A DNA stretch of 25,852 bases from Nitrosospira sp. (GTDB lineage Bacteria > Pseudomonadota > Gammaproteobacteria > Burkholderiales > Nitrosomonadaceae). The stretch is taken from assembly GCA_030453055.1 (NCBI GenBank), contig JAKDLC010000001.1, positions 1 through 25,852 of the forward strand, read 5' to 3'. A program made the translations under genes and the position numbers. This document shows, piece after piece, positions 1 through 11,601 of this stretch. Under the pieces are notes generated by a model. That model was given only the letters and a program-made list of their open reading frames with translations, had not been told where the DNA came from and ran no database searches. Within the stretch, counting starts at the first letter, position 1, and the number at the start of each line of letters is the position of its first letter.

Positions 1-737
1 ACCTTCTCACGCGAATGCGCAAAGCCGGTCAAGGTCAGGACGCCTATGCAGGCCGCGGCTATCAGCACAGGCCAGGTGGCGCGGCGCGTCATGCCGGCAG
101 GCCGGTCTGAGACCGCCAGCACGGTCGCCAGGCCTATCAAAACCAGGCTGAGCGAGAAGATGATTACCCTGGTGCCCAACTGGGGCAGCAGATAAAAACC
201 CAGCAGCAGCGTTCCCACCACGCTGCCCACGGTGCTGATGGCGTAAACCGATCCCGACGATGTGCCGACGTGGCGCAAGTGCTGCGTCGAGCGCTTGATC
301 ACATACGGCCCGACCATGGCGAGACTGGTCAACGGCAGGGTAAACAGGACGAGTGCGCTGGTGAACGCGCCGGCCCGCATGCCCCATGAATCCGTGGCAA
401 CCAGGACGGTTCCCGTCATGAATGGAATGGCTGCGGCAGTCATGGCCGCGAAAAGAATCACATGCGGCAATTGCACCTGCGGCAGCCGATCCGCCATGGA
501 GCCCCCCAGATAGTAGCCCAGCGCCAGGGCGATGAGCGTCACGGCGATGATGGAAGACCAGACATAGAGGCTGACCCCGTAAAACGCGCCGATGATACGC
601 GCGCCCAGGAGTTCCAGCACCATCACCGCCGCGCCGGTGATCATGACTACAACATAAAGCAATACCGTGTTGCCGGTGGCGAACTCGGCGGGAAGAGAAG
701 GGCGATGCTCCGGAAATGCTGTGGAATTCTGTGCCAT
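1..737 (-). CDS. Partial membrane protein, spermidine-synthase-like family (N-terminal part)
   Basis: The reading frame is open to the left edge, so about 245 residues of the N-terminus are visible and the C-terminus is outside the window. It starts MAQNSTAFPEH and contains several hydrophobic helices (about residues 23-45, 55-79, 92-115, 125-147, 165-185 and 190-209). The segments MVLELLGARIIGAFYG, followed by ALALGYYLGGSMADRL, and GSVYAISTVGSVVGTLL are the pattern I associate with the membrane half of proteins annotated as fused MFS/spermidine synthase. The aminopropyltransferase-like domain would lie beyond the edge. The substrate is unknown; many such proteins are not proven polyamine enzymes. 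A weak purine stretch (AGGGA) precedes the ATG. A dyad element and a promoter-like pair lie 158-203 bp upstream. Transcribed divergently from the cytochrome operon. Family call fairly sure, function not. Confidence 0.7.
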   Translation of the reverse strand, partial: MAQNSTAFPEHRPSLPAEFATGNTVLLYVVVMITGAAVMVLELLGARIIGAFYGVSLYVWSSIIAVTLIALALGYYLGGSMADRLPQVQLPHVILFAAMTAAAIPFMTGTVLVATDSWGMRAGAFTSALVLFTLPLTSLAMVGPYVIKRSTQHLRHVGTSSGSVYAISTVGSVVGTLLLGFYLLPQLGTRVIIFSLSLVLIGLATVLAVSDRPAGMTRRATWPVLIAAACIGVLTLTGFAHSREK

Positions 738-894: not shown

Positions 895-923
895 AGTATT
901 GGTCAGAGGCCACACCGTGTCAA
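895..923 (-). promoter_or_regulatory. Candidate -35/-10 promoter next to dyad, leftward
   Basis: On the minus strand TTGACA (918-923) abuts the dyad at 924-940, and AATACT (895-900) follows after exactly 17 bp. The same arrangement (TTGATT, 17 bp, AATACT) occurs before PEP-CTERM gene 2. The -35 is perfect; the -10 is weak, as expected for an activator-dependent promoter. It points to the gene ending at the left edge, with a leader of about 150 bp. Confidence 0.4.
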
Positions 924-940
924 TGCGACATATTGCCGCA
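924..940 (-). promoter_or_regulatory. 17-bp dyad element, copy 1
   Basis: Plus strand TGCGACA-TAT-TGCCGCA, an inverted repeat with 7-bp arms and a 3-bp centre. One of five such elements in the window, all in upstream regions. The arms fit a dimeric DNA-binding protein site; the cognate regulator is not in the window. Confidence 0.55.
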
Positions 941-979
941 GGACAGTGGGAACACTAACGCGCCCATCAGGCCCGGGTC

Positions 980-996
980 CGCGACAATATGTCACA
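980..996 (+). promoter_or_regulatory. 17-bp dyad element, copy 2, upstream of the cytochrome operon
   Basis: Plus strand CGCGACA-ATA-TGTCACA, 39 bp from copy 1 and in the opposite sense, so the pair could serve both divergent genes. This is the most degenerate copy. It lies about 250 bp before the cytochrome start. Confidence 0.45.
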
Positions 997-1122
997 TTCC
1001 CAAGACATGTTTTCCGCTATACACTTCCACGCGCACATCCTCCGAAATCAGCCATCCATGGAGCGGGATCGGAAGTGAGTACAAATAAAACAGCGTTGCA
1101 AAGCAGTCTTATTGGCGATTCT

Positions 1123-1128
1123 TATAAT
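1123..1128 (+). promoter_or_regulatory. -10-like TATAAT before the cytochrome operon
   Basis: A perfect TATAAT hexamer 120 bp before the chosen cytochrome start. No good -35 is seen at 16-18 bp (the nearest TTGCAA is 21 bp away), so the call is tentative. Confidence 0.3.
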
Positions 1129-1247
1129 CTCTTGACCCAGCCGGATATGAATTTTCCCTCCTTGCTCTTTATTGAGCATCGTCAGTGTTATGTCTGCATC
1201 ATTTCCTGCCCCTTGGTTTCCGGCTGGCGGCGGTTGAGTTTCCCTTT

Positions 1248-2225
1248 ATGGATGTCACCGGGGCGAGCCGCTTGAGAAAGCTGTTGCTGCTCATGGCGGC
1301 ATGGCTGCAGCTGATATTCCTGCCGCCGGGTCTCCTGGTTATTTCCCAGAGCGCCTCGGCACAGGACGATGCCGCTAAAACCCCAATCCAGGACATGGTC
1401 TTGAAGGGGGATGCGAGATGCACCCGCTGTCACGACGAGCATGAAAAATATCCCGTGCTCTCCATCGGCAAGACCAAGCACGGCACCGTCGCCGACAGCC
1501 GTACTCCCACCTGCACGAGTTGCCACGGCGAGAGTGAGGTGCACGTCAGGAATCCCGAGAAACACGCCTTCCCCGAGCGTTCGTTCGGAAAAAACTCGAC
1601 GAACTCGGCGCAGGAGAAAAATCAGGCCTGCCTGGCCTGTCATGAAGGCGGCATACGCATGCACTGGGCCGGCAGTCGCCATGCGAACCAGGATGTTCCT
1701 TGCGCCGCTTGTCACCAGGTGCATGCGGCGCACGATAAGGTACGCGACAGGCTGACGCAATCGGAAGTGTGCTTCGCCTGCCATAAGGAACAGCGGATCG
1801 AGATCAAGCGGCCTTACCGCCACCCGATAAGGGAAGGCAAGGTCGCCTGTTCCGACTGCCATAACCCGCATGGTTCCGCCGGCCCGAGCATGATGGTGCG
1901 CGATAGCATCAACGACACGTGCTATACCTGCCACATGGAGAAACGCGGCCCTTTTGTCCGCAACCATCAGCCGGTACAGGAGAATTGCGCCATTTGCCAC
2001 AATCCGCATGGCACGACCGCTCCCAACCTGCTCAGGTGGCGCTCGCCCTTCCTGTGCCAGGAGTGCCATGAGCCGAATACCCACCAGGGAGCCATCGGGT
2101 CGTTCGACGCGCCGGGTGGCCGCGAACAGAATACCCTGGCGCGGGGCTGCCTGAATTGCCATACCCAGATTCACGGCAGCAACAGCCCGCTGGATGAGCG
2201 CAACGAGCGTCTTTTCCAGCGTTGA
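1248..2225 (+). CDS. Decaheme c-type cytochrome, MtrA/DmsE/PioA type
   Basis: The protein has 325 residues from the ATG chosen here and exactly ten CXXCH heme-binding motifs, with first cysteines near residues 58, 89, 128, 152, 175, 201, 225, 247, 270 and 301. The start at 1248 gives a conventional signal peptide (basic SRLRK, hydrophobic core to about residue 33, then SASAQ); a longer frame starts at 1185 but adds a poor leader. Size, heme count and the neighbouring MtrB-like barrel match the MtrA/PioA/MtoA family: periplasmic cytochromes that insert into an outer-membrane porin and carry electrons across the outer membrane. Direction (uptake or export) cannot be read from sequence. It lies 12 bp before the barrel gene, so the two are surely co-transcribed. 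No monoheme donor and no MtrC-like outer cytochrome is nearby. Heme attachment would use the Ccm system encoded at the right end. Confidence 0.92.
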   Translation: MDVTGASRLRKLLLLMAAWLQLIFLPPGLLVISQSASAQDDAAKTPIQDMVLKGDARCTRCHDEHEKYPVLSIGKTKHGTVADSRTPTCTSCHGESEVHVRNPEKHAFPERSFGKNSTNSAQEKNQACLACHEGGIRMHWAGSRHANQDVPCAACHQVHAAHDKVRDRLTQSEVCFACHKEQRIEIKRPYRHPIREGKVACSDCHNPHGSAGPSMMVRDSINDTCYTCHMEKRGPFVRNHQPVQENCAICHNPHGTTAPNLLRWRSPFLCQECHEPNTHQGAIGSFDAPGGREQNTLARGCLNCHTQIHGSNSPLDERNERLFQR

Positions 2226-2237
2226 TAAAGATCGGCG

Positions 2238-4310
2238 ATGGTCGGCCTGAAAATACCCGGACGCCGGTTTTTACCGATCGAGGCTGCCGTTGTCACGCTG
2301 TTGATTTCTCCGGGTTCGGCGGGATTGGCCTGGGCGGATACGGCGAGCGATCGTGTCACGCGGCTGACCCGGCCCCACAGCACGGTCGACTTGGGAGTCG
2401 GCTACCTTTTCAACGATGGCGCCCGTTTTGGCCAGTATAGCGGTATGCGCGACGCAGGGCCTTACGGGCTGATCAATGCGGATATATTGAAACGCAGCGA
2501 CGCCACGGGAACCTGGTACAGGTTGAGGGGGCGCAATCTCGGGCTCGATAGTCGCGAACTGCGCCTGGAACACAGCCAGCAGGGCAACTGGGGCTATGTT
2601 ATCGATTTCAGCCAGACTCCACGCTATGAACCCTTTACGGTAAGGACCGCCGTCAGCGGAATCGGAACCTCCCATCTCCACGTTCCCACTACGCCTACCG
2701 CCGGAGATCCCATGCTGTTCAAGACGGAGCGCACCGCGGTCGGATTCGGGCTCGGCAAATCGTTTGCGGGAAATATGGATTTCCAGTTGCACTTTCGTAA
2801 TGAAGAAAAAGATGGCGCGCGCGTGTTTGGGCGAGGCACGCGCTCAATTTTTGCCGGGGCTTTCGGATTTACGCCGGAGCCCATCAATTCCACCACCCGG
2901 CTGTTCGGCGCCACGCTCGGCTATAACGGCAAACGGTTGCAGTTATCCGGGGGGTACTACGGCACCATGTATGTCAATCACAATACGGCGCTCCACATTA
3001 CGGGAGGCAGCAGCGCCGGCGGCGGCAGTGCCTTGAATACCTATAACCCCATTGCGCTGCCGCCCGACAACCAGTCGCACCAATTATTCCTGGGCGGCGG
3101 CTACAGTTTTACCCCGACCACACGCGGAAATTTCAAGGTTGCGTACACGCACGCGACGCAAACCAATGCATTCATTCACAGCCTGCTGCTTGCGCCCGGT
3201 GTGGGCAGCCATCTGGGCGGGCGCATCGATACGACCCTGCTGCAAGGGGGCCTTACGGCGCGCCCGCTGCCCAAGCTCTCTCTGCTGGCCAATATCCGCT
3301 ATGAGGATCGGGATGATAAAACCCCCATCCTCAATTACAATCCGCACGCACCCGGTTATCCCGGATTCAACCAGCCGTTCTCCATGCGGACATTGAACGC
3401 CAAGGTGGAAGCATACTACGCCTTGCCCATGAGCTTCCGTCTGACCGGCGGCGTGGATTTCGATCAGCGGCACCGCGATTATGGCGCGCCCATCGTTGTC
3501 CGCCATCGGGGCCGCACCGATGAATGGTCGTATCGGGTCGAATTGCGCCGCTCGATGTCCGAAACCGTTACCGGTGCGGTTTCCTATATCTATAGCGACC
3601 GCAGCGGCTCGGATTTTCTGCGTTCGATCATACCCGGCTACCCCGGTTTCGTTTCTCCTATCAACCTGGCGGATCGTTCGCGGCACAAGGTGCGTTTGCT
3701 GATCAACTGGGTGCCCATCGAGCCGCTGTCGCTGCAATTCATAGTGGACGAATCGCGCGACAATTACGGGCGCGACAATACTGCGAATCTGGGGCCGCAG
3801 GAAGGCATGGCGCGCGATTATGCGGTCGATGCGACCTATACGTTCTCGGACGCATGGCATGCAACGGCATGGTTCTCGAGAAACGAAACCCGCCTGGACC
3901 AGTTTTCGAGGACCAATCCCGTCACGGCCGGCGGACAGTTCTGGGCCGCCGATCTCAGCCATCAGAGCACCTCCTTCGGCTGGAGCGCAAACGGCAGACA
4001 GAAACCCAAGCTGGACATGGGGGCCGATCTGTATTATTCCGACATCAACGATAAATACCGGCAAAGGGCGCTTACCGGCTCGCCGATCGATTCTCTTCCG
4101 GACATTTCCACAGAGCTGAGCAATCTGAGGCTGTTCGTGAGATACGCAATACAGAAAAACATGGGCCTTCGGCTTGACTATATCTACAATCGCTTCAAAA
4201 CCGATGAATGGACCTGGGCGAACTGGACCTTCACCGACGGCACGCGGCTGAGTCAGGACCCGCTTCAGGCGATCAGCTTCGTCGGTCTGTCGGGCTACTA
4301 CAATTGGTAG
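2238..4310 (+). CDS. Outer-membrane beta-barrel, MtrB/PioB family
   Basis: The protein has 690 residues with an N-terminal signal sequence (cleavage likely after about residue 33, AWA). The mature part has alternating polar/aromatic strands typical of a large barrel, and it ends in GYYNW, the terminal-aromatic signature recognised by the outer-membrane assembly machinery. Together with the decaheme gene 12 bp upstream, this identifies it as the MtrB/PioB/MtoB porin that sheathes the cytochrome through the outer membrane. The length is typical of the family. There is no cysteine at all, so it lacks the N-terminal CXXC seen in Shewanella MtrB. The start codon has only a weak ribosome site, so translational coupling to the upstream gene is likely. 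Two decayed copies of the 3' end of a close paralogue lie 1.1-2 kb downstream. Confidence 0.88.
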   Translation: MVGLKIPGRRFLPIEAAVVTLLISPGSAGLAWADTASDRVTRLTRPHSTVDLGVGYLFNDGARFGQYSGMRDAGPYGLINADILKRSDATGTWYRLRGRNLGLDSRELRLEHSQQGNWGYVIDFSQTPRYEPFTVRTAVSGIGTSHLHVPTTPTAGDPMLFKTERTAVGFGLGKSFAGNMDFQLHFRNEEKDGARVFGRGTRSIFAGAFGFTPEPINSTTRLFGATLGYNGKRLQLSGGYYGTMYVNHNTALHITGGSSAGGGSALNTYNPIALPPDNQSHQLFLGGGYSFTPTTRGNFKVAYTHATQTNAFIHSLLLAPGVGSHLGGRIDTTLLQGGLTARPLPKLSLLANIRYEDRDDKTPILNYNPHAPGYPGFNQPFSMRTLNAKVEAYYALPMSFRLTGGVDFDQRHRDYGAPIVVRHRGRTDEWSYRVELRRSMSETVTGAVSYIYSDRSGSDFLRSIIPGYPGFVSPINLADRSRHKVRLLINWVPIEPLSLQFIVDESRDNYGRDNTANLGPQEGMARDYAVDATYTFSDAWHATAWFSRNETRLDQFSRTNPVTAGGQFWAADLSHQSTSFGWSANGRQKPKLDMGADLYYSDINDKYRQRALTGSPIDSLPDISTELSNLRLFVRYAIQKNMGLRLDYIYNRFKTDEWTWANWTFTDGTRLSQDPLQAISFVGLSGYYNW

Positions 4311-4440
4311 CGAGGGTGTGGTGCGGGACGATTCTCAGGCGCAGCGCGCGCCACCTGTGACAAGCGATGTGTCAATCAGGTGCGGCGAACTTGCCGATCA
4401 GGTAATCGAACGGTACAGATGAATGCAACCGTATGATAAG

Positions 4441-4469
4441 CAAAGGCCGCCCGGATGGGGCGGCCTTTG
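4441..4469 (-). terminator. Strong hairpin between convergent genes
   Basis: A 12-bp perfect stem (CAAAGGCCGCCC paired with its complement) closes a 5-nt loop. It lies 30 bp past the stop of PEP-CTERM gene 1 and 130 bp past the stop of the porin gene. The minus-strand side is followed by TTATCAT and the plus side has no T-run, so it most likely serves the leftward gene, possibly both. Confidence 0.6.
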
Positions 4470-4498
4470 CGATTGAAACAAAGCGGTTCAGAGCAAGC

Positions 4499-5272
4499 TT
4501 ATGCCGCTTTATCCGCCGCTTTATGCCGGCGTGCGACCGCGCCCATCAAACCCAGGCCGGCCAGCAACATGGCATAGGTTTCCGGTTCCGGTACGACGGC
4601 TATGCTGGCGTCAAAATCATAATTCCTGCTGCCGGCGGCTGTACCCACGGCATCGTAATCGGCGCCGCCGACGATAACGGAATAGGTACCCGCGTCCAAT
4701 GAAAAGATTTTGTTCACCATGCCGTCCGCCGTGCCATCGCCCATGACGCCGGGCTGCGTGGTGGCGCTGCCAAAATTGGCGGCGGTGCCATCGACAGCGT
4801 AACCCTTAAACGTTAAAAAACTGGTCTCACCCGCATCGTTTGCCGTCTGGAAACTACCCATCGCATTCCAGAAACCTTCGTCCGCGGCTGGGCCCGCCTG
4901 CATATCCCGCCATGCAAAAGCGGCGTCGGCGAAGTCGTGGGCAAGTGGGACGGCGAGCCCTTCATACACGGAGAAACCCGGCAGCAGAACTCCGCCTGCC
5001 TCGTTGGGGGTCATGTTCGATTCTACGGAGAGCTTTACTGCGGCGGGATTTTCCAAGGTGAATTGGAGAAATTGTCCGTTATGGGAATCGCCCCAATCCG
5101 CATCCGCCGCATCCGCCCAGCCGTAGTTGCTGTGGACGGATGTATTAACGCTACCCGAAGCCCCAACGCTGAGTCCGCTGAAAGTTCCAAGGTTTTTGTA
5201 GTCGGGATGCGCCATCGCCGGCAGTGAGACCATACCCGTGAGAAACAAGCTGAGTTGAAGTGATTTTTTCAT
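4499..5272 (-). CDS. PEP-CTERM sorted extracellular protein 1
   Basis: The protein has 257 residues. A signal peptide (MKKSLQLSLFLTGMVSLPAMA) ends before HPDYKN. The C-terminus carries the PEP-CTERM sorting signal: VPEPETYAML from about residue 227, a hydrophobic helix, then a basic tail (RRHK). Such proteins are known to be cut by exosortase and linked to extracellular polysaccharide. The middle part has GWADAADADWGDSH and LLPGFSVYEGLAVPLAHDF, shared in outline with the second PEP-CTERM protein at 6647-7453, so the two are paralogues. The molecular role of the middle domain is unknown to me. A good ribosome site (AAGGAG, plus strand 5281-5286) stands 8 nt before the ATG. Upstream are a sigma-54-like box and one dyad. 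No exosortase gene is in the window. Confidence 0.85.
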   Translation of the reverse strand: MKKSLQLSLFLTGMVSLPAMAHPDYKNLGTFSGLSVGASGSVNTSVHSNYGWADAADADWGDSHNGQFLQFTLENPAAVKLSVESNMTPNEAGGVLLPGFSVYEGLAVPLAHDFADAAFAWRDMQAGPAADEGFWNAMGSFQTANDAGETSFLTFKGYAVDGTAANFGSATTQPGVMGDGTADGMVNKIFSLDAGTYSVIVGGADYDAVGTAAGSRNYDFDASIAVVPEPETYAMLLAGLGLMGAVARRHKAADKAA

Positions 5273-5303
5273 GTGGAGTACTCCTTCTAAAGGTTTAGAG
5301 GTA

Positions 5304-5337
5304 ATTCTCGACTGAACATCATTCTCGACTGAACATC
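5304..5337. repeat. 17-bp tandem duplication in the leader of PEP-CTERM gene 1
   Basis: ATTCTCGACTGAACATC occurs twice in perfect tandem (5304-5320 and 5321-5337). It lies between the sigma-54-like box and the ribosome site, so it would be in the 5' leader of the transcript. Confidence 0.8.
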
Positions 5338-5361
5338 ATTGAATCGTGCCTGTCGAGCGGA

Positions 5362-5377
5362 AGCAATGATGTCGCCA
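5362..5377 (-). promoter_or_regulatory. Candidate sigma-54 (-24/-12) promoter of PEP-CTERM gene 1
   Basis: The minus strand reads TGGCGACATCATTGCT. Compared with the known consensus TGGCACGNNNNTTGCW it has the invariant GG and GC with the exact 10-bp separation and the full TGGC and TTGCT ends; positions 5-7 differ. The predicted transcript start is near 5351. PEP-CTERM genes are known to be under RpoN and the PrsK/PrsR pair in some betaproteobacteria, which makes this plausible. Confidence 0.5.
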
Positions 5378-5409
5378 TAACCTTAGTCCAAGGCAATAAC
5401 AGAAGTCAA

Positions 5410-5426
5410 TGCGGCATATCGTCGCA
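5410..5426 (-). promoter_or_regulatory. 17-bp dyad element, copy 3, before PEP-CTERM gene 1
   Basis: Plus strand TGCGGCA-TAT-CGTCGCA. On the minus strand it runs directly into TTGACT. It ends 32 bp upstream of the -24/-12 candidate, a position suited to an activator site. Confidence 0.55.
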
Positions 5427-5453
5427 ACCCCCATACGGATATGGGAATACCGC

Positions 5454-5655
5454 GAGATACGCAATCCAGAAAAACATGGGCCTTCGGCTCGACTACATCT
5501 ATAATCGCTTCAAAACCGATGAATGGACCTGGGCGAACTGGACTTACACCGACGGTACCCGGCTGAGCCAGAACCCGAATCAGGGGGGTCAGTTTCGTTG
5601 GCCTGTCGGGTTATTACAACTGGTAGCGAGAGCGTAGTGCGGATGATTCTCGGGA
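5454..5655 (+). pseudogene. Decayed 3' fragment of an mtrB paralogue, copy A
   Basis: The DNA from 5454 closely matches the intact barrel gene from 4139 through its stop and into the sequence just after it (AGCGAG, then a diverged GATTCTC block). It encodes IQKNMGLRLDYIYNRFKTDE as in the intact gene. A run of six G at about 5583-5588, one more base than the frame allows, shifts the frame so that the terminal SGYYNW and stop are read out of phase. No start codon or signal sequence remains. Bases 5461-5630 are identical to 6107-6276. It is a remnant of a second porin gene, not of the intact one, because it differs from that gene at many silent positions. Confidence 0.85.
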
Positions 5656-5671
5656 GGGGATTCTCTATCGA

Positions 5672-5905
5672 CTACCCATGATCCGTAAGCGTGCGGTAGG
5701 CTCGTGTAGTGTTCAGATAGGACTCACCAAATCTTAGGTTTGGTAGAGCGGTAAAGTACTTTATTTCGCCGATAGTTTGATTGGGCAGGAGAAATTCGCA
5801 CAGCTTTTCGAGGTTGACCCATCGATACGGTGTCTTCCTGAGAGCGCCATAGTACAGATTGAAGCCATCAATGTAGATGTTTGTTATTGTCAAATCCGGC
5901 TCCAT
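5672..5905 (-). pseudogene. Truncated NYN-domain (PIN-like nuclease) protein
   Basis: From the ATG at 5905 the frame encodes 77 residues beginning MEPDLTITN. NIYIDGFNLYYGAL is the classic first strand and loop of NYN/LabA-like domains, with the conserved aspartate and asparagine of the metal-dependent nuclease fold; VNLEKLCEFLLP and IGEIKYFTA also fit. Complete family members usually run to about 200 residues or more. Here the likeness fades after the stretch around RAYRTLTDHG and a stop follows at 5672, just where the mtrB-like fragment A ends. The later acidic residues of the active site are missing, so the protein is very probably non-functional. A hairpin lies immediately upstream. Confidence 0.65.
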
Positions 5906-5915
5906 AAATGCAGAA

Positions 5916-5931
5916 GCCGCCCGAAGGCGGC
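5916..5931 (-). terminator. GC-rich tetraloop hairpin
   Basis: Minus strand GCCGCC-TTCG-GGCGGC, followed by TTCTGCATTT. The UUCG-type loop and following T-rich bases are typical of an intrinsic terminator. No intact leftward gene lies directly upstream, so it may be a relic of one lost from this rearranged region. Confidence 0.45.
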
Positions 5932-6025
5932 CTCGCGCCCAACCACCGAAGCGATTGGGGGGATATAGGTGAAGCATGGATTAAAATGAAGGTTTTGTCA
6001 AGGGGTACGAATTGCGTGTTGCTAA

Positions 6026-6283
6026 CACAGCGTGCTGCTCGCCCCCGGAGTGGGTGGCAGCCTGCACGGACGCGTCGACACGACCCTGAGGCTGTTTGTG
6101 AAATGCGCAATCCAGAAAAACATGGGCCTTCGGCTCGACTACATCTATAATCGCTTCAAAACCGATGAATGGACCTGGGCGAACTGGACTTACACCGACG
6201 GTACCCGGCTGAGCCAGAACCCGAATCAGGGGGGTCAGTTTCGTTGGCCTGTCGGGTTATTACAACTGGTAGCGAGGGTGCAG
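6026..6283 (+). pseudogene. Decayed, internally deleted mtrB paralogue, copy B
   Basis: Two separate parts of the barrel gene are fused. Bases 6026-6088 encode HSVLLAPGVGGSLHGRVDTT, matching HSLLLAPGVGSHLGGRIDTT of the intact porin (near 3178-3239). Then, without a break in frame, RLFVKCAIQKN matches the intact gene from about 4128. About 890 bp between these points is absent. The same six-G frameshift as in copy A destroys the last strand. A TAA lies immediately before the homology, and no signal peptide is present. The 170 bp at 6107-6276 are identical to copy A. Confidence 0.82.
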
Positions 6284-6302
6284 GTTAAGTGCAGAAAAGA
6301 AA

Positions 6303-6332
6303 GTTCGTAACATCTTCGGGGATGTTACGAAC
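6303..6332. repeat. Perfect 12-bp inverted repeat
   Basis: GTTCGTAACATC and its exact complement flank a 6-nt TTCGGG loop. It follows remnant B by 20 bp. No T-run follows on either strand, so it is not a textbook terminator; it could be an end of a lost mobile element or a protein site. Confidence 0.6.
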
Positions 6333-6547
6333 CAAAGGAGGTTATAGGAGGAAATGCACTAAGAAACAACAACGACTACATGCTTAACAGCATCAGCATC
6401 AGAAAATCTTTTAAAACTCTAACTTCAGGTGGTACCGACTCACCATAACTTCCGGTAAGCCAGGTCTTGCTCTCAACGTAGCGTACGTTTCCGTAAAAAA
6501 CCATGTAAATCAGTTCTTGGGAAGGCTTAATCGAGAGTTTTATAAAT

Positions 6548-6626
6548 CACCCCGCCGCAAGCAGCGGGGTGTTAACTGCGTTCTTACCATTCGTCGGCTT
6601 TCAGCCGACTCCCGCCCCAAGAGGCG
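6548..6626 (-). terminator. Hairpin cluster downstream of PEP-CTERM gene 2
   Basis: Three stems lie in a row: 6613-6626 (CGCC/GGCG), 6593-6609 (GTCGGC-TTTCA-GCCGAC) and 6548-6571 (CACCCCGC, 8-nt loop, GCGGGGTG). Read leftward from the PEP-CTERM gene 2 stop at 6647, the last is the strongest and is followed by ATTTATAAAA, so it is a plausible transcription terminator. The ordered cluster is more structure than a terminator needs and may be a structured RNA or transposon-end relic. Confidence 0.45.
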
Positions 6627-6646
6627 AGGAATCAAGCTTGCAGAGA

Positions 6647-7453
6647 TTAAACGCTACCGGTCCTGATGCGACGCCGTGTGATGGCCCCCATCAACCCCAA
6701 GCCGGCCAGCAGCATGGCGTAGGTTTCCGGTTCGGGCACCACGCCTACCGTCAGGGTACCCTCGAGGCCATATTTGGTCATTTTGTCCGGATTCGAATCA
6801 AGCTGCGCCAGATAATCCGATCCCCCAACAAACACTGAATAGTCGCCGGCCCCCAGATTCATGAAAGTATGCGACACCATATTGTCCTGCGTCCCATCCG
6901 AACCATAGCCCGTGCCATCATAGGCGTGGCCGATATACTCGAAAAAACTCAGTCTGGCCGGAATGACCGTGCCGTTGAGGTCGCCTGGACTGTTGCCAAT
7001 CGACCAGTCGGTCATCGCCCGGAACGAGCCTTCGGCATAATCGGGCCGGCTTGCCACGGATAGATCCGAGCCGTCATGAGGCAACGGTATCGGCCTAAGG
7101 CTCGCAAGCCCCTGGTAGAGCGAAAAACCGGGGATCAATCCGAGCTCCGCGGTGTGGACATTGCCGCGATGATCGGTGACCTCGCCAGTCGCCTCCTTGA
7201 ACGAAAGCGTGACGTTGGATTCCTCGGTCAAGGTGAAGCGGAAAGGCCGCACTCTATGGCTGTTGCCATAGTCGGCATCCGTACCGTCGATCCAGCCCCA
7301 GTTGCCGGTGGCCGCCTGGCCGGTCAAGGTAGTGCTGGTCAATGTGCTGCCGTCGAAAGTGCCGAAGTTGCGGTGGCCATAGCCGATGTGGGCCATCGCC
7401 GGCACTGACGTCATGCCGGCCAGAAGTAACGCGTAGCTAAGTGTTTTTTTCAT
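6647..7453 (-). CDS. PEP-CTERM sorted extracellular protein 2
   Basis: The protein has 268 residues with a signal peptide (MKKTLSYALLLAGMTSVPAMA) and the sorting tail VPEPETYAMLLAGLGLMG from about residue 239, followed by a basic end (TRRRIR). Between these, NFGTFDG, GNWGWIDGTDADYGNSH and LIPGFSLYQGLASL parallel the first PEP-CTERM protein, so the pair arose by duplication and diverged widely. Known family logic: exported, cut by an exosortase and attached to extracellular polysaccharide. A purine-rich site (AAGGGAAA) precedes the ATG. Two back-to-back dyads and a -35/-10-like pair lie 100-162 bp upstream; hairpins follow the stop. The function of the central domain is not recognised. Confidence 0.85.
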   Translation of the reverse strand: MKKTLSYALLLAGMTSVPAMAHIGYGHRNFGTFDGSTLTSTTLTGQAATGNWGWIDGTDADYGNSHRVRPFRFTLTEESNVTLSFKEATGEVTDHRGNVHTAELGLIPGFSLYQGLASLRPIPLPHDGSDLSVASRPDYAEGSFRAMTDWSIGNSPGDLNGTVIPARLSFFEYIGHAYDGTGYGSDGTQDNMVSHTFMNLGAGDYSVFVGGSDYLAQLDSNPDKMTKYGLEGTLTVGVVPEPETYAMLLAGLGLMGAITRRRIRTGSV

Positions 7454-7552
7454 TTGGAGTTTCCCTTGATTAATTTATGACAGGAATGTCAATTTATTAA
7501 GAAAAATAGAACTCAGTACATCGGAATGCTTGTCAGCAATACCGATGAGCCG

Positions 7553-7581
7553 AGTATTTATCATTCAGGTCAGTAAATCAA
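7553..7581 (-). promoter_or_regulatory. Candidate -35/-10 promoter of PEP-CTERM gene 2
   Basis: Minus-strand TTGATT (7576-7581) abuts the dyad, and AATACT (7553-7558) follows after 17 bp. The same layout occurs at 895-923. A GGC...TTGC pair further down has a 12-bp instead of 10-bp gap, so it is not a valid sigma-54 box. Confidence 0.4.
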
Positions 7582-7598
7582 TGTGGCATATTGCCGCA
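7582..7598 (-). promoter_or_regulatory. 17-bp dyad element, copy 4
   Basis: Plus strand TGTGGCA-TAT-TGCCGCA. It directly adjoins copy 5 with no base between, and on its gene-proximal side adjoins TTGATT. Confidence 0.6.
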
Positions 7599-7615
7599 TG
7601 CGGCAAATTGTCGCA
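7599..7615 (-). promoter_or_regulatory. 17-bp dyad element, copy 5
   Basis: Plus strand TGCGGCA-AAT-TGTCGCA. Together with copy 4 it forms a 34-bp tandem pair of dyads, which would allow two dimers to bind side by side. Confidence 0.6.
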
Positions 7616-7732: not shown

Positions 7733-7848
<116 letters not shown>

Positions 7849-7927
7849 AGGTAGGGCGCAATAAGCGAAAGCGCATTGCGCCGTATGAAACTAACGGATT
7901 ATGTGTTGGGTTGTTTCCCGGCCAAGG

Positions 7928-11488: not shown

Positions 11489-11601
11489 GTCATTCCCGCG
11501 AAAGCGGGAATCCGGACGCTGACTGGAACAGGCCGTCATCCTGCAGCGGGTGAATTCGGGTAACCGAAAACCCCATGGATTCCCGCTTTCGCGGGAATGA
11601 C
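11489..11601 (-). repeat. dRS3-flanked repeat element, copy 2 (113 bp)
   Basis: The reverse complement aligns end to end with 7733-7844, with 25-bp identical terminal inverted repeats. The shared core includes CTGCAGGATGACGGCCTGTT. Opposite orientation to copy 1, so the two bound 3.6 kb of intervening DNA as an inverted pair. Confidence 0.8.

Follow-up and report, generated by a model that had tools for sequence, protein, structure and literature searches.

A sharp 17-bp palindrome upstream of PEP-CTERM, mtrAB and other genes in Nitrosospira is probably the operator of the RegB/RegA redox system

We analysed a stretch of 25,852 nucleotides from Nitrosospira sp. (contig JAKDLC010000001.1 of assembly GCA_030453055.1; "the window" below means this whole stretch), in which a sequence-only reading had noticed five copies of the 17-bp dyad TGYGRCA-NNN-TGYCRCA upstream of an edge membrane gene, an MtrA/MtrB-type operon and two PEP-CTERM genes. 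We put at roughly 90% the probability that this dyad is the operator of the host's RegB/RegA redox two-component system, with the activation and the regulon proposed here. RegA, a response regulator with a Fis-type helix-turn-helix (HTH), would bind the 17-bp palindrome TGYGRCA-WWW-TGYCRCA, presumably as a dimer; the membrane kinase RegB, which has a quinone-site motif and a redox-box cysteine, would set its activity; and RegA centred near -44 would most likely activate RNA polymerase directly, often from tandem boxes with a 17-bp period. The candidate regulon would comprise regBA itself (autoregulation), a subset of PEP-CTERM proteins, exopolysaccharide (EPS) genes, TonB-dependent receptors and a fused major facilitator superfamily (MFS)/spermidine synthase, with mtrAB joining it in this strain and one congener. 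From sequence match, placement, conservation and co-occurrence we infer the binding, the activation and the redox signal. The boxes of the window and the promoter elements beside them are as follows.

895..923, minus strand: sigma-70-type promoter TTGACA-N17-AATACT, abutting box 1
924..940, minus strand: RegA-type box 1, TGCGGCAATATGTCGCA on the minus strand, exact, fitting the PrrA consensus; for the MFS/spermidine synthase gene
980..996, plus strand: RegA-type box 2, CGCGACAATATGTCACA, one mismatch; for mtrA
997..1025, plus strand: promoter-like TTCCCA-N17-TACACT, abutting box 2; for mtrAB
5404..5409, minus strand: -35-like TTGACT, abutting box 3, with no good -10 at N17 (CTAAGG)
5410..5426, minus strand: RegA-type box 3, TGCGACGATATGCCGCA on the minus strand, one mismatch; 138 bp upstream of a PEP-CTERM gene
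7553..7581, minus strand: promoter TTGATT-N17-AATACT, abutting box 4
7582..7598, minus strand: RegA-type box 4, exact, the promoter-proximal member of a tandem pair; 129 bp upstream of a start codon
7599..7615, minus strand: RegA-type box 5, exact, back-to-back with box 4 at a 17-bp period, fitting the PrrA consensus

All five copies were found where they had been placed, each upstream of a gene: three are exact (924-940, 7582-7598 and 7599-7615), and two depart from the pattern by one base (C as the first base at 980-996, and C instead of T at position 11 of 5410-5426). The promoter elements described with them were recovered too, namely TTGAYW at the gene-proximal edge of three copies (TTGACA at 924, TTGACT at 5410 and TTGATT at 7582) and AATACT 17 bp further on in two of these (924 and 7582). 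At up to two mismatches the window holds six matches, compared with 1.33 ± 1.19 expected and with none of 100 shuffles reaching six; the sixth, at 1743 with two mismatches, lies within mtrA.

Published RegA-family sites, cited here and below from excerpts of the papers, include the PrrA form YSCGGC-N5-GWCRMA, the RegR form GNGRCRTTNNGNCGC and the Rhodobacter capsulatus RegA form SSGNVRDNHYSNCSS (PMC5506826), as well as a PrrA form with an N0-10 spacer (PMC5435760). The PrrA N5 form occurs three times in the window over both strands, and every occurrence is one of the dyads (924, 5410 and 7599); two loose published forms give 48 and 20 matches, and the RegR form gives none on either strand and fits none of the five dyads. 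When distinct exact sites are pooled, 8 of 21 fit the PrrA N5 form, versus 0 of 20,000 random 17-mers of the same composition. As three of the five dyads fit this form and the others fit none, the window dyads are, judged by their letters, a related but sharper palindrome than the published sites, and the idea that the site is new in kind was not borne out: it is very probably a box of the RegA/PrrA type. Like the sites of RegA, PrrA, RegR, ActR and RoxR, it has GCGRC and GYCGC half-sites 5 bp apart and stands before regB, and the kinase likewise carries a quinone motif and a cysteine. RegA acts as a global redox regulator, and its sites have been described as degenerate and, in some species, as not predictable (PMC4263372, PMC5506826): chromatin immunoprecipitation sequencing in Rhodobacter gave no strong PrrA consensus (PMC4263372), and in the lithotroph Acidithiobacillus ferrooxidans, where RegA binding was seen upstream of genes for ferrous-iron and sulfur oxidation, it proved impossible to predict a motif (PMC5506826). 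The excerpt of PMC11742914 likewise gives no binding motif for this regulator. Whereas the published RegA/PrrA sites are degenerate with spacers of 0-10, the palindrome here is sharp and 17 bp long with fixed spacing, mostly locked to a -35 element and often in tandem at 17 bp.

Both partners of the system are encoded in the genome. The RegA homologue (G000:C352) scores 201.6 bits to NF033791, with the next response regulator at 68.7, and consists of a receiver and a short Fis-type HTH with MHRRTLQR; its nearest solved relative is 3rqi (168.9 bits, full length), which we take to be a Burkholderia protein, and the PrrA effector domain 1umq matches over the HTH. The RegB-type kinase lies on contig C444, where the 253 residues encoded before the contig breaks off match the ActS/PrrB/RegB model NF033792 over residues 11-251. 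This piece carries GGSTNPF and AHELGTPL; contig C352 has the remainder of the gene, which encodes the conserved cysteine, and regA after it. On C444 a box ends 84 bp before regB. Across the family, GGSTNPF and the H-box AHELGTPL are each found in 21/21 loci, our own gene included, and an RDQIxxCK-type cysteine is present in all 20 complete relatives (L187 and L189 among them). The redox-box cysteine of RegB is Cys-265. The quinone motif of the RegB membrane domain has been described as GGXXNPF (PMC8191878), and outside the family it varies (GGYMNPL, DGASNPL in L156, L193).

In our own assembly, which comprises 2.50 Mb in 446 contigs and is 80% complete, a scan for the dyad gave 22 sites at up to one mismatch against 6 for a reversed-pattern control, and 8 exact sites against 0. 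Because the centres of the family sites are nearly always A/T, we adopted TGYGRCA-WWW-TGYCRCA as the working motif. Exact AT-centred sites keep out of genes: in stretches of our own genome, G021 and G024, with genes called by our own heuristic for open reading frames (ORFs), none of 31 such sites lies more than 50 codons inside an ORF of at least 150 amino acids, with ORFs of this size covering 77%, and at up to one mismatch 5 of 53 do. Six weak one-mismatch sites of our own genome were set aside as chance matches, four without an AT centre (C198, C227, C415 and C425) and two within ORFs of 423 and 140 amino acids (C7 and C440). Pairs of sites less than 70 bp apart are spaced at exactly 17 bp in 10 of 14 cases and at 15 bp in two, and the 17-bp spacing suggests RegA dimers side by side.

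We further surveyed 41 relatives, comprising 25 genomes of the window's family and 16 other genomes of its order. Each of these 25 family genomes has one RegA (74-100% identity) and between 4 and 14 exact sites, for a total of 220 versus 5 in the control. Four of the 16 genomes from outside the family have a RegA (E <1e-40), namely G027, G031, G037 and G039, with 1, 0, 4 and 9 exact sites, respectively; among the other 12, sites occur only in G026 (2, control 1). Allowing one mismatch and requiring an AT centre, the sites number 16 versus 0 control matches in G021, 19 versus 0 in G024, 10 versus 1 in G039, 8 versus 2 in G037 and 2 versus 0 in G027, and the RegA-less G036 has 0 versus 1. Extending the comparison to 250 genomes of the order, we find the exact AT-centred box in 62/118 genomes with RegA versus 4/132 without (181 versus 4 sites; Fisher P 1.1e-20), and in 55/110 versus 4/132 when the host's own family is excluded (P 1e-18); at most 13 candidates were scored per genome in this RegA search, which may have missed some RegA genes.

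The box also recurs at the regulator genes themselves. At up to one mismatch it lies upstream of regB in 18/21 family loci, and four genomes (G002, G006, G007 and G013) have a listed site 1.35-1.4 kb upstream of regA; together the 18 scored loci and these four genomes place a box before regB in 22 of the 25 family genomes. In 20 loci taken from 19 other families the search pattern recognised regB 13 times and yielded none at the other seven; a box lies upstream in 8 of the 13 (18.6-27.2 bits). Of the 185 sites of the order-wide comparison, 75 lying outside the family were listed, and 12 of those listed lie within 2.5 kb of regA, versus roughly 0.12 expected; 10 of the 12 are on the upstream side (9 promoters) and two downstream (G186, and G202 contig C25), with G047 counted in both the regB and the regA-proximity sets. 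Co-occurrence and a box before regB do not by themselves name the binder, and 4 of the 66 box-positive genomes have no RegA hit, so that another dimeric regulator of the LuxR, CRP or Fis type, co-inherited with RegBA, could bind the dyad, with RegBA merely its target. We consider this quite improbable: the half-sites match the RegA-family consensus, the box near regB recurs where RegA is only 52-68% identical to our own, and a second regulator would need to track RegA across the order.

The position of the box relative to the promoter points to how RegA might act. From 36 sites with a clear target direction, picked by hand and not at random, 30 dissimilar promoters were left after the removal of look-alikes (at most 55% identical downstream). 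In 21 of these 30, TT directly follows the dyad, versus 2.6 expected, and in 21 the pattern xAxxxT begins 23 bp after the dyad, versus 2.3 expected and 8 at the next best offset. This register corresponds to a -35 element, a 17-bp spacer and a -10 element, with the dyad at about -52 to -36; the -35 hexamers are often poor (TTCCCA, TTCCTA). With the box ending at the -35 of sigma-70-type promoters with a 17-bp spacer, RegA would be centred near -44 and is therefore most likely an activator, and the box position together with the often poor -35 hexamers suggests that it contacts polymerase. That the dyads are RegA boxes at which RegA is mainly a repressor is unlikely, though it deserves some weight: in its favour are the position of the box directly against the -35 and the good -35 of certain promoters (TTGACA at 918-923), and Rhodobacter PrrA represses the adhesion gene fdp (PMC7561615). 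Yet the box does not extend into the -35, which is itself poor at many promoters, as would be expected of activator-dependent ones, and in Acidithiobacillus most of the RegA binding was found upstream of the -35 (PMC5506826). The same 30 promoters bear on whether the repeated dyads of this cluster merely descend from a single ancestral promoter that gene duplication multiplied in the absence of selection. The window does hold duplications (mtrB 3' ends and related PEP-CTERM genes), and the promoter at 5410 and that at C79:2829 look alike, but promoters at most 55% identical downstream, belonging to unrelated genes and to several families, largely keep the register of box, -35 and -10, which makes this origin hardly credible.

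Several results weigh against the assignment of the dyad to RegA and the promoter model built on it. The host's RegA reaches 201.6 of the 250 bits set as the curated NCBIfam cut-off of NF033791, and we therefore term it a RegA-type homologue rather than an NF033791 equivalog; the host's RegB reaches 176.4 of 350 bits for NF033792, scored on half a protein. The dyads at 980 and 7582 and the site at our own regB fit none of the four published patterns, and 13 of the 21 distinct exact sites fall outside the PrrA form. G031 has RegA yet 1 site versus 4 control matches (up to one mismatch, AT centre), and 56 of the 118 RegA-bearing genomes of the order are without an exact box, including G250 of the host's own family (1.3 Mb). 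No qualifying box stands before regB in G016 and G020 (none) or in G019 (only one with two mismatches), and 6 of the 30 promoters (L016, L141:2960, L146:3397, L152, L155 and L156) lack the -35 and -10 at the expected place.

The candidate targets in the window, besides mtrAB, are three genes.

1..737, minus strand: fused MFS/spermidine-synthase-like membrane protein, N-terminal half, running off the window; resembles a gene of locus L146 and the full gene of G017 (L251)
4499..5272, minus strand: PEP-CTERM protein, FxDxF family (NF038126, 54.5 bits, cut-off 50)
6647..7453, minus strand: PEP-CTERM protein, FxDxF family (NF038126, 54.9 bits, cut-off 50)

The L146 relative of the edge gene scores 207 bits to NF037959 (cut-off 40). 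The genome has 32 PEP-CTERM hits (29 over the cut-off), of which we inspected 30, leaving out those on C380 and C90. Five have a box, the two in the window, two on C79 and one on C136, where the box may serve a divergent gene instead; at the other 25, nothing of at least 12 bits was found within up to 450 bp upstream (only 5 bp at L124). The statement that the dyads mark the promoters of PEP-CTERM genes thus holds for five genes and is overstated as a rule, since many other types of gene have the box. In our own genome it is also present at regB, epsD (C334), mtrA and the MFS/spermidine synthase gene, near queG and XrtA-type EPS genes (C434), upstream of dksA, where promoter signals are missing (C75), and as three tandem copies between a TonB-dependent receptor gene and a YbbP-like permease gene (C185). 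In other genomes the box is associated with TonB-dependent receptor genes (by family scans in G005, G021 and G039, by eye in G006), with an extracytoplasmic-function-type sigma factor gene (G006), with PEP-CTERM genes recognised by their C-terminal pattern (G005, G006, G017, G021 and G024) and, in G024, with an MFS/spermidine synthase gene and a permease gene whose product is 62% identical to our own. On these sequence grounds, PEP-CTERM genes are one class among several in the candidate regulon.

The YbbP-like permease gene has a box 397 bp upstream in L018 (C185):1685-4189 and 224 bp upstream in L146:675-3173 (G024), and may be a further shared target. Dense clusters of boxes occur elsewhere: the G024 locus L146 (G024:C1:2059896-2065829) packs eight boxes, seven of them exact and the eighth with a mismatch, into 6 kb, where they precede genes for an ABC-type (ATP-binding cassette) permease and a spermidine synthase along with several small genes of unknown family, and L154-L155 (G039:C1:652765-671062), from another family, holds seven exact boxes in 18 kb, with TonB-dependent receptor genes following at least two of them.

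An upstream element of PEP-CTERM genes has already been described, the enhancer sites of PrsR used with sigma-54 promoters (the PrsK/PrsR system; PMC1569441, PMC9850573), which resemble the dyad in being 17 nt long, sometimes repeated and placed before PEP-CTERM genes; N. multiformis was part of the study that defined this motif 1 (PMC1569441). Our genome has PrsR-type fragments (TIGR02915; 178 bits on C52 and 174 bits on C387, either one covering about half of the model), binding of a PEP-CTERM response regulator to the PEP-CTERM targets predicted for it has been seen in Desulfovibrio (PMC3333781), and the box-bearing gene at 4499-5272 has one sigma-54-like match with two mismatches. Motif 1, however, has TTTACA at its end and is followed at a distance of 32-92 nt by a -24(GG)/-12(GC) promoter (PMC1569441, PMC9850573), whereas the dyad differs in sequence and in most cases directly adjoins a -35 that is separated from the -10 by N17. 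A sigma-54 and TTTACA signature is clear only at the PEP-CTERM genes of L129 and L130 (weakly at L127), all without the dyad, and the dyad also stands before regB, mtrA and TonB-dependent receptor genes. That our sites are this PrsR element is accordingly very improbable. A guessed PrsR pattern, TGTAAA-N5-TTTACA with up to three mismatches, was tried at the five box-bearing PEP-CTERM genes and rejected, with no match at any of them. As a PrsR-type regulator appears to be split between C52 and C387, PEP-CTERM genes may have two regulatory arms side by side, RegA being the one proposed for the dyad.

The electron conduit of the window is encoded by two genes.

1248..2225, plus strand: mtrA-like decaheme c-type cytochrome, DmsE family (TIGR03508, 278 bits, cut-off 192.2)
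2238..4310, plus strand: mtrB/pioB-type outer-membrane barrel (TIGR03509, 337 bits, cut-off 240.05)

The nearest named MtrB is from Nitrosomonas communis (56%). Of 22 congeners searched, only G017 has mtrA (72% identity), and in the gap that separates its mtrA from the MFS/spermidine synthase gene both boxes are preserved, each of them exact (L251:11853 for box 1 and L251:11790 for box 2) and with the same promoter geometry: TTCCCG-N17-TACACT toward mtrA and TTGACG-N17-AATACT toward the spermidine synthase gene. The G017 locus has six boxes within 19 kb, one of them 98 bp before a PEP-CTERM gene. No site at up to one mismatch is present at the 22 named MtrB loci searched in other genera, Nitrosomonas communis and Nm33 among them, and the regions preceding mtrB, read over as much as 2.5 kb, contain nothing of at least 10 bits; in L048 and L052 this region is just 1.1-1.2 kb or so long and may not reach the mtrA promoter. 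At the order-level mtrA loci L198-L201, in genomes without RegA, nothing reaches 7 bits. With the box at mtrA in our own genome and G017 and absent from the 22 other loci, the link between mtrA and the box holds in both mtrA-bearing genomes of the genus (2/2) but is young or local, and the proposal that the MtrA/MtrB operon is under this element stands for these two genomes and not beyond. MtrA/MtrB homologues are known from ammonia oxidisers, where they have been proposed as an adaptation to oxygen limitation (PMC10415592); the available text of that paper contains no word starting with "regulat", and two Nitrosomonas mtr loci lack the box. The last 184 nt of the mtrB 3' end (4139-4322) are copied at 5454-5637 and 6100-6283, around the PEP-CTERM genes; the two copies are 97% alike mutually and 71% alike to the gene, as duplication remnants.

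The suggestion that one regulator ties the extracellular matrix to electron transfer holds in outline for the genus, where the element is shared, but the regulator would be of a known family, RegA, and its regulon wider. For a host that is apparently an ammonia oxidiser, one can tentatively picture RegBA reading the quinone pool, so that a shortage of electron acceptor or oxygen would switch on exosortase-sorted matrix proteins, EPS, outer-membrane receptors and, where present, MtrAB; the box might then be a RegA code in much of the order and the tandem arrangement a cooperative variant. We regard this broader picture as possible rather than probable. If true, electrons would pass under redox control through a matrix that the cells build themselves. 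RegA also offers a controller that can be tested for the extracellular electron transfer proposed in ammonia oxidisers. A sharp box in a fixed promoter register would also make the RegA regulon readable from sequence in many genomes of the order. A 2006 study of PEP-CTERM proteins left further regulators and DNA motifs still to be found (PMC1569441), and RegA is a concrete candidate for one such regulator. In the excerpts of open-licence literature available, we found no link of RegA with PEP-CTERM genes, of RegB/RegA with Nitrosospira or Nitrosomonas, or of PEP-CTERM with a palindromic promoter; in the one paper that mentions RegA, RegB, redox and PEP-CTERM alike, the excerpts do not connect them.

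Two observations concern the layout around the window. Halves of one MFS/spermidine synthase gene lie at two contig ends (window 1-737 and L017 (C79):3-845), and as the gene order of G017 (L251) agrees, C79, which has three further PEP-CTERM genes, is probably the contig immediately to the left of the window. Inverted copies of a REP-like (repetitive extragenic palindromic) element, cattcccgcgaaagcgggaat, were seen by eye at about 7735-7850 and 11490-11600, flanking a histidine-kinase region.

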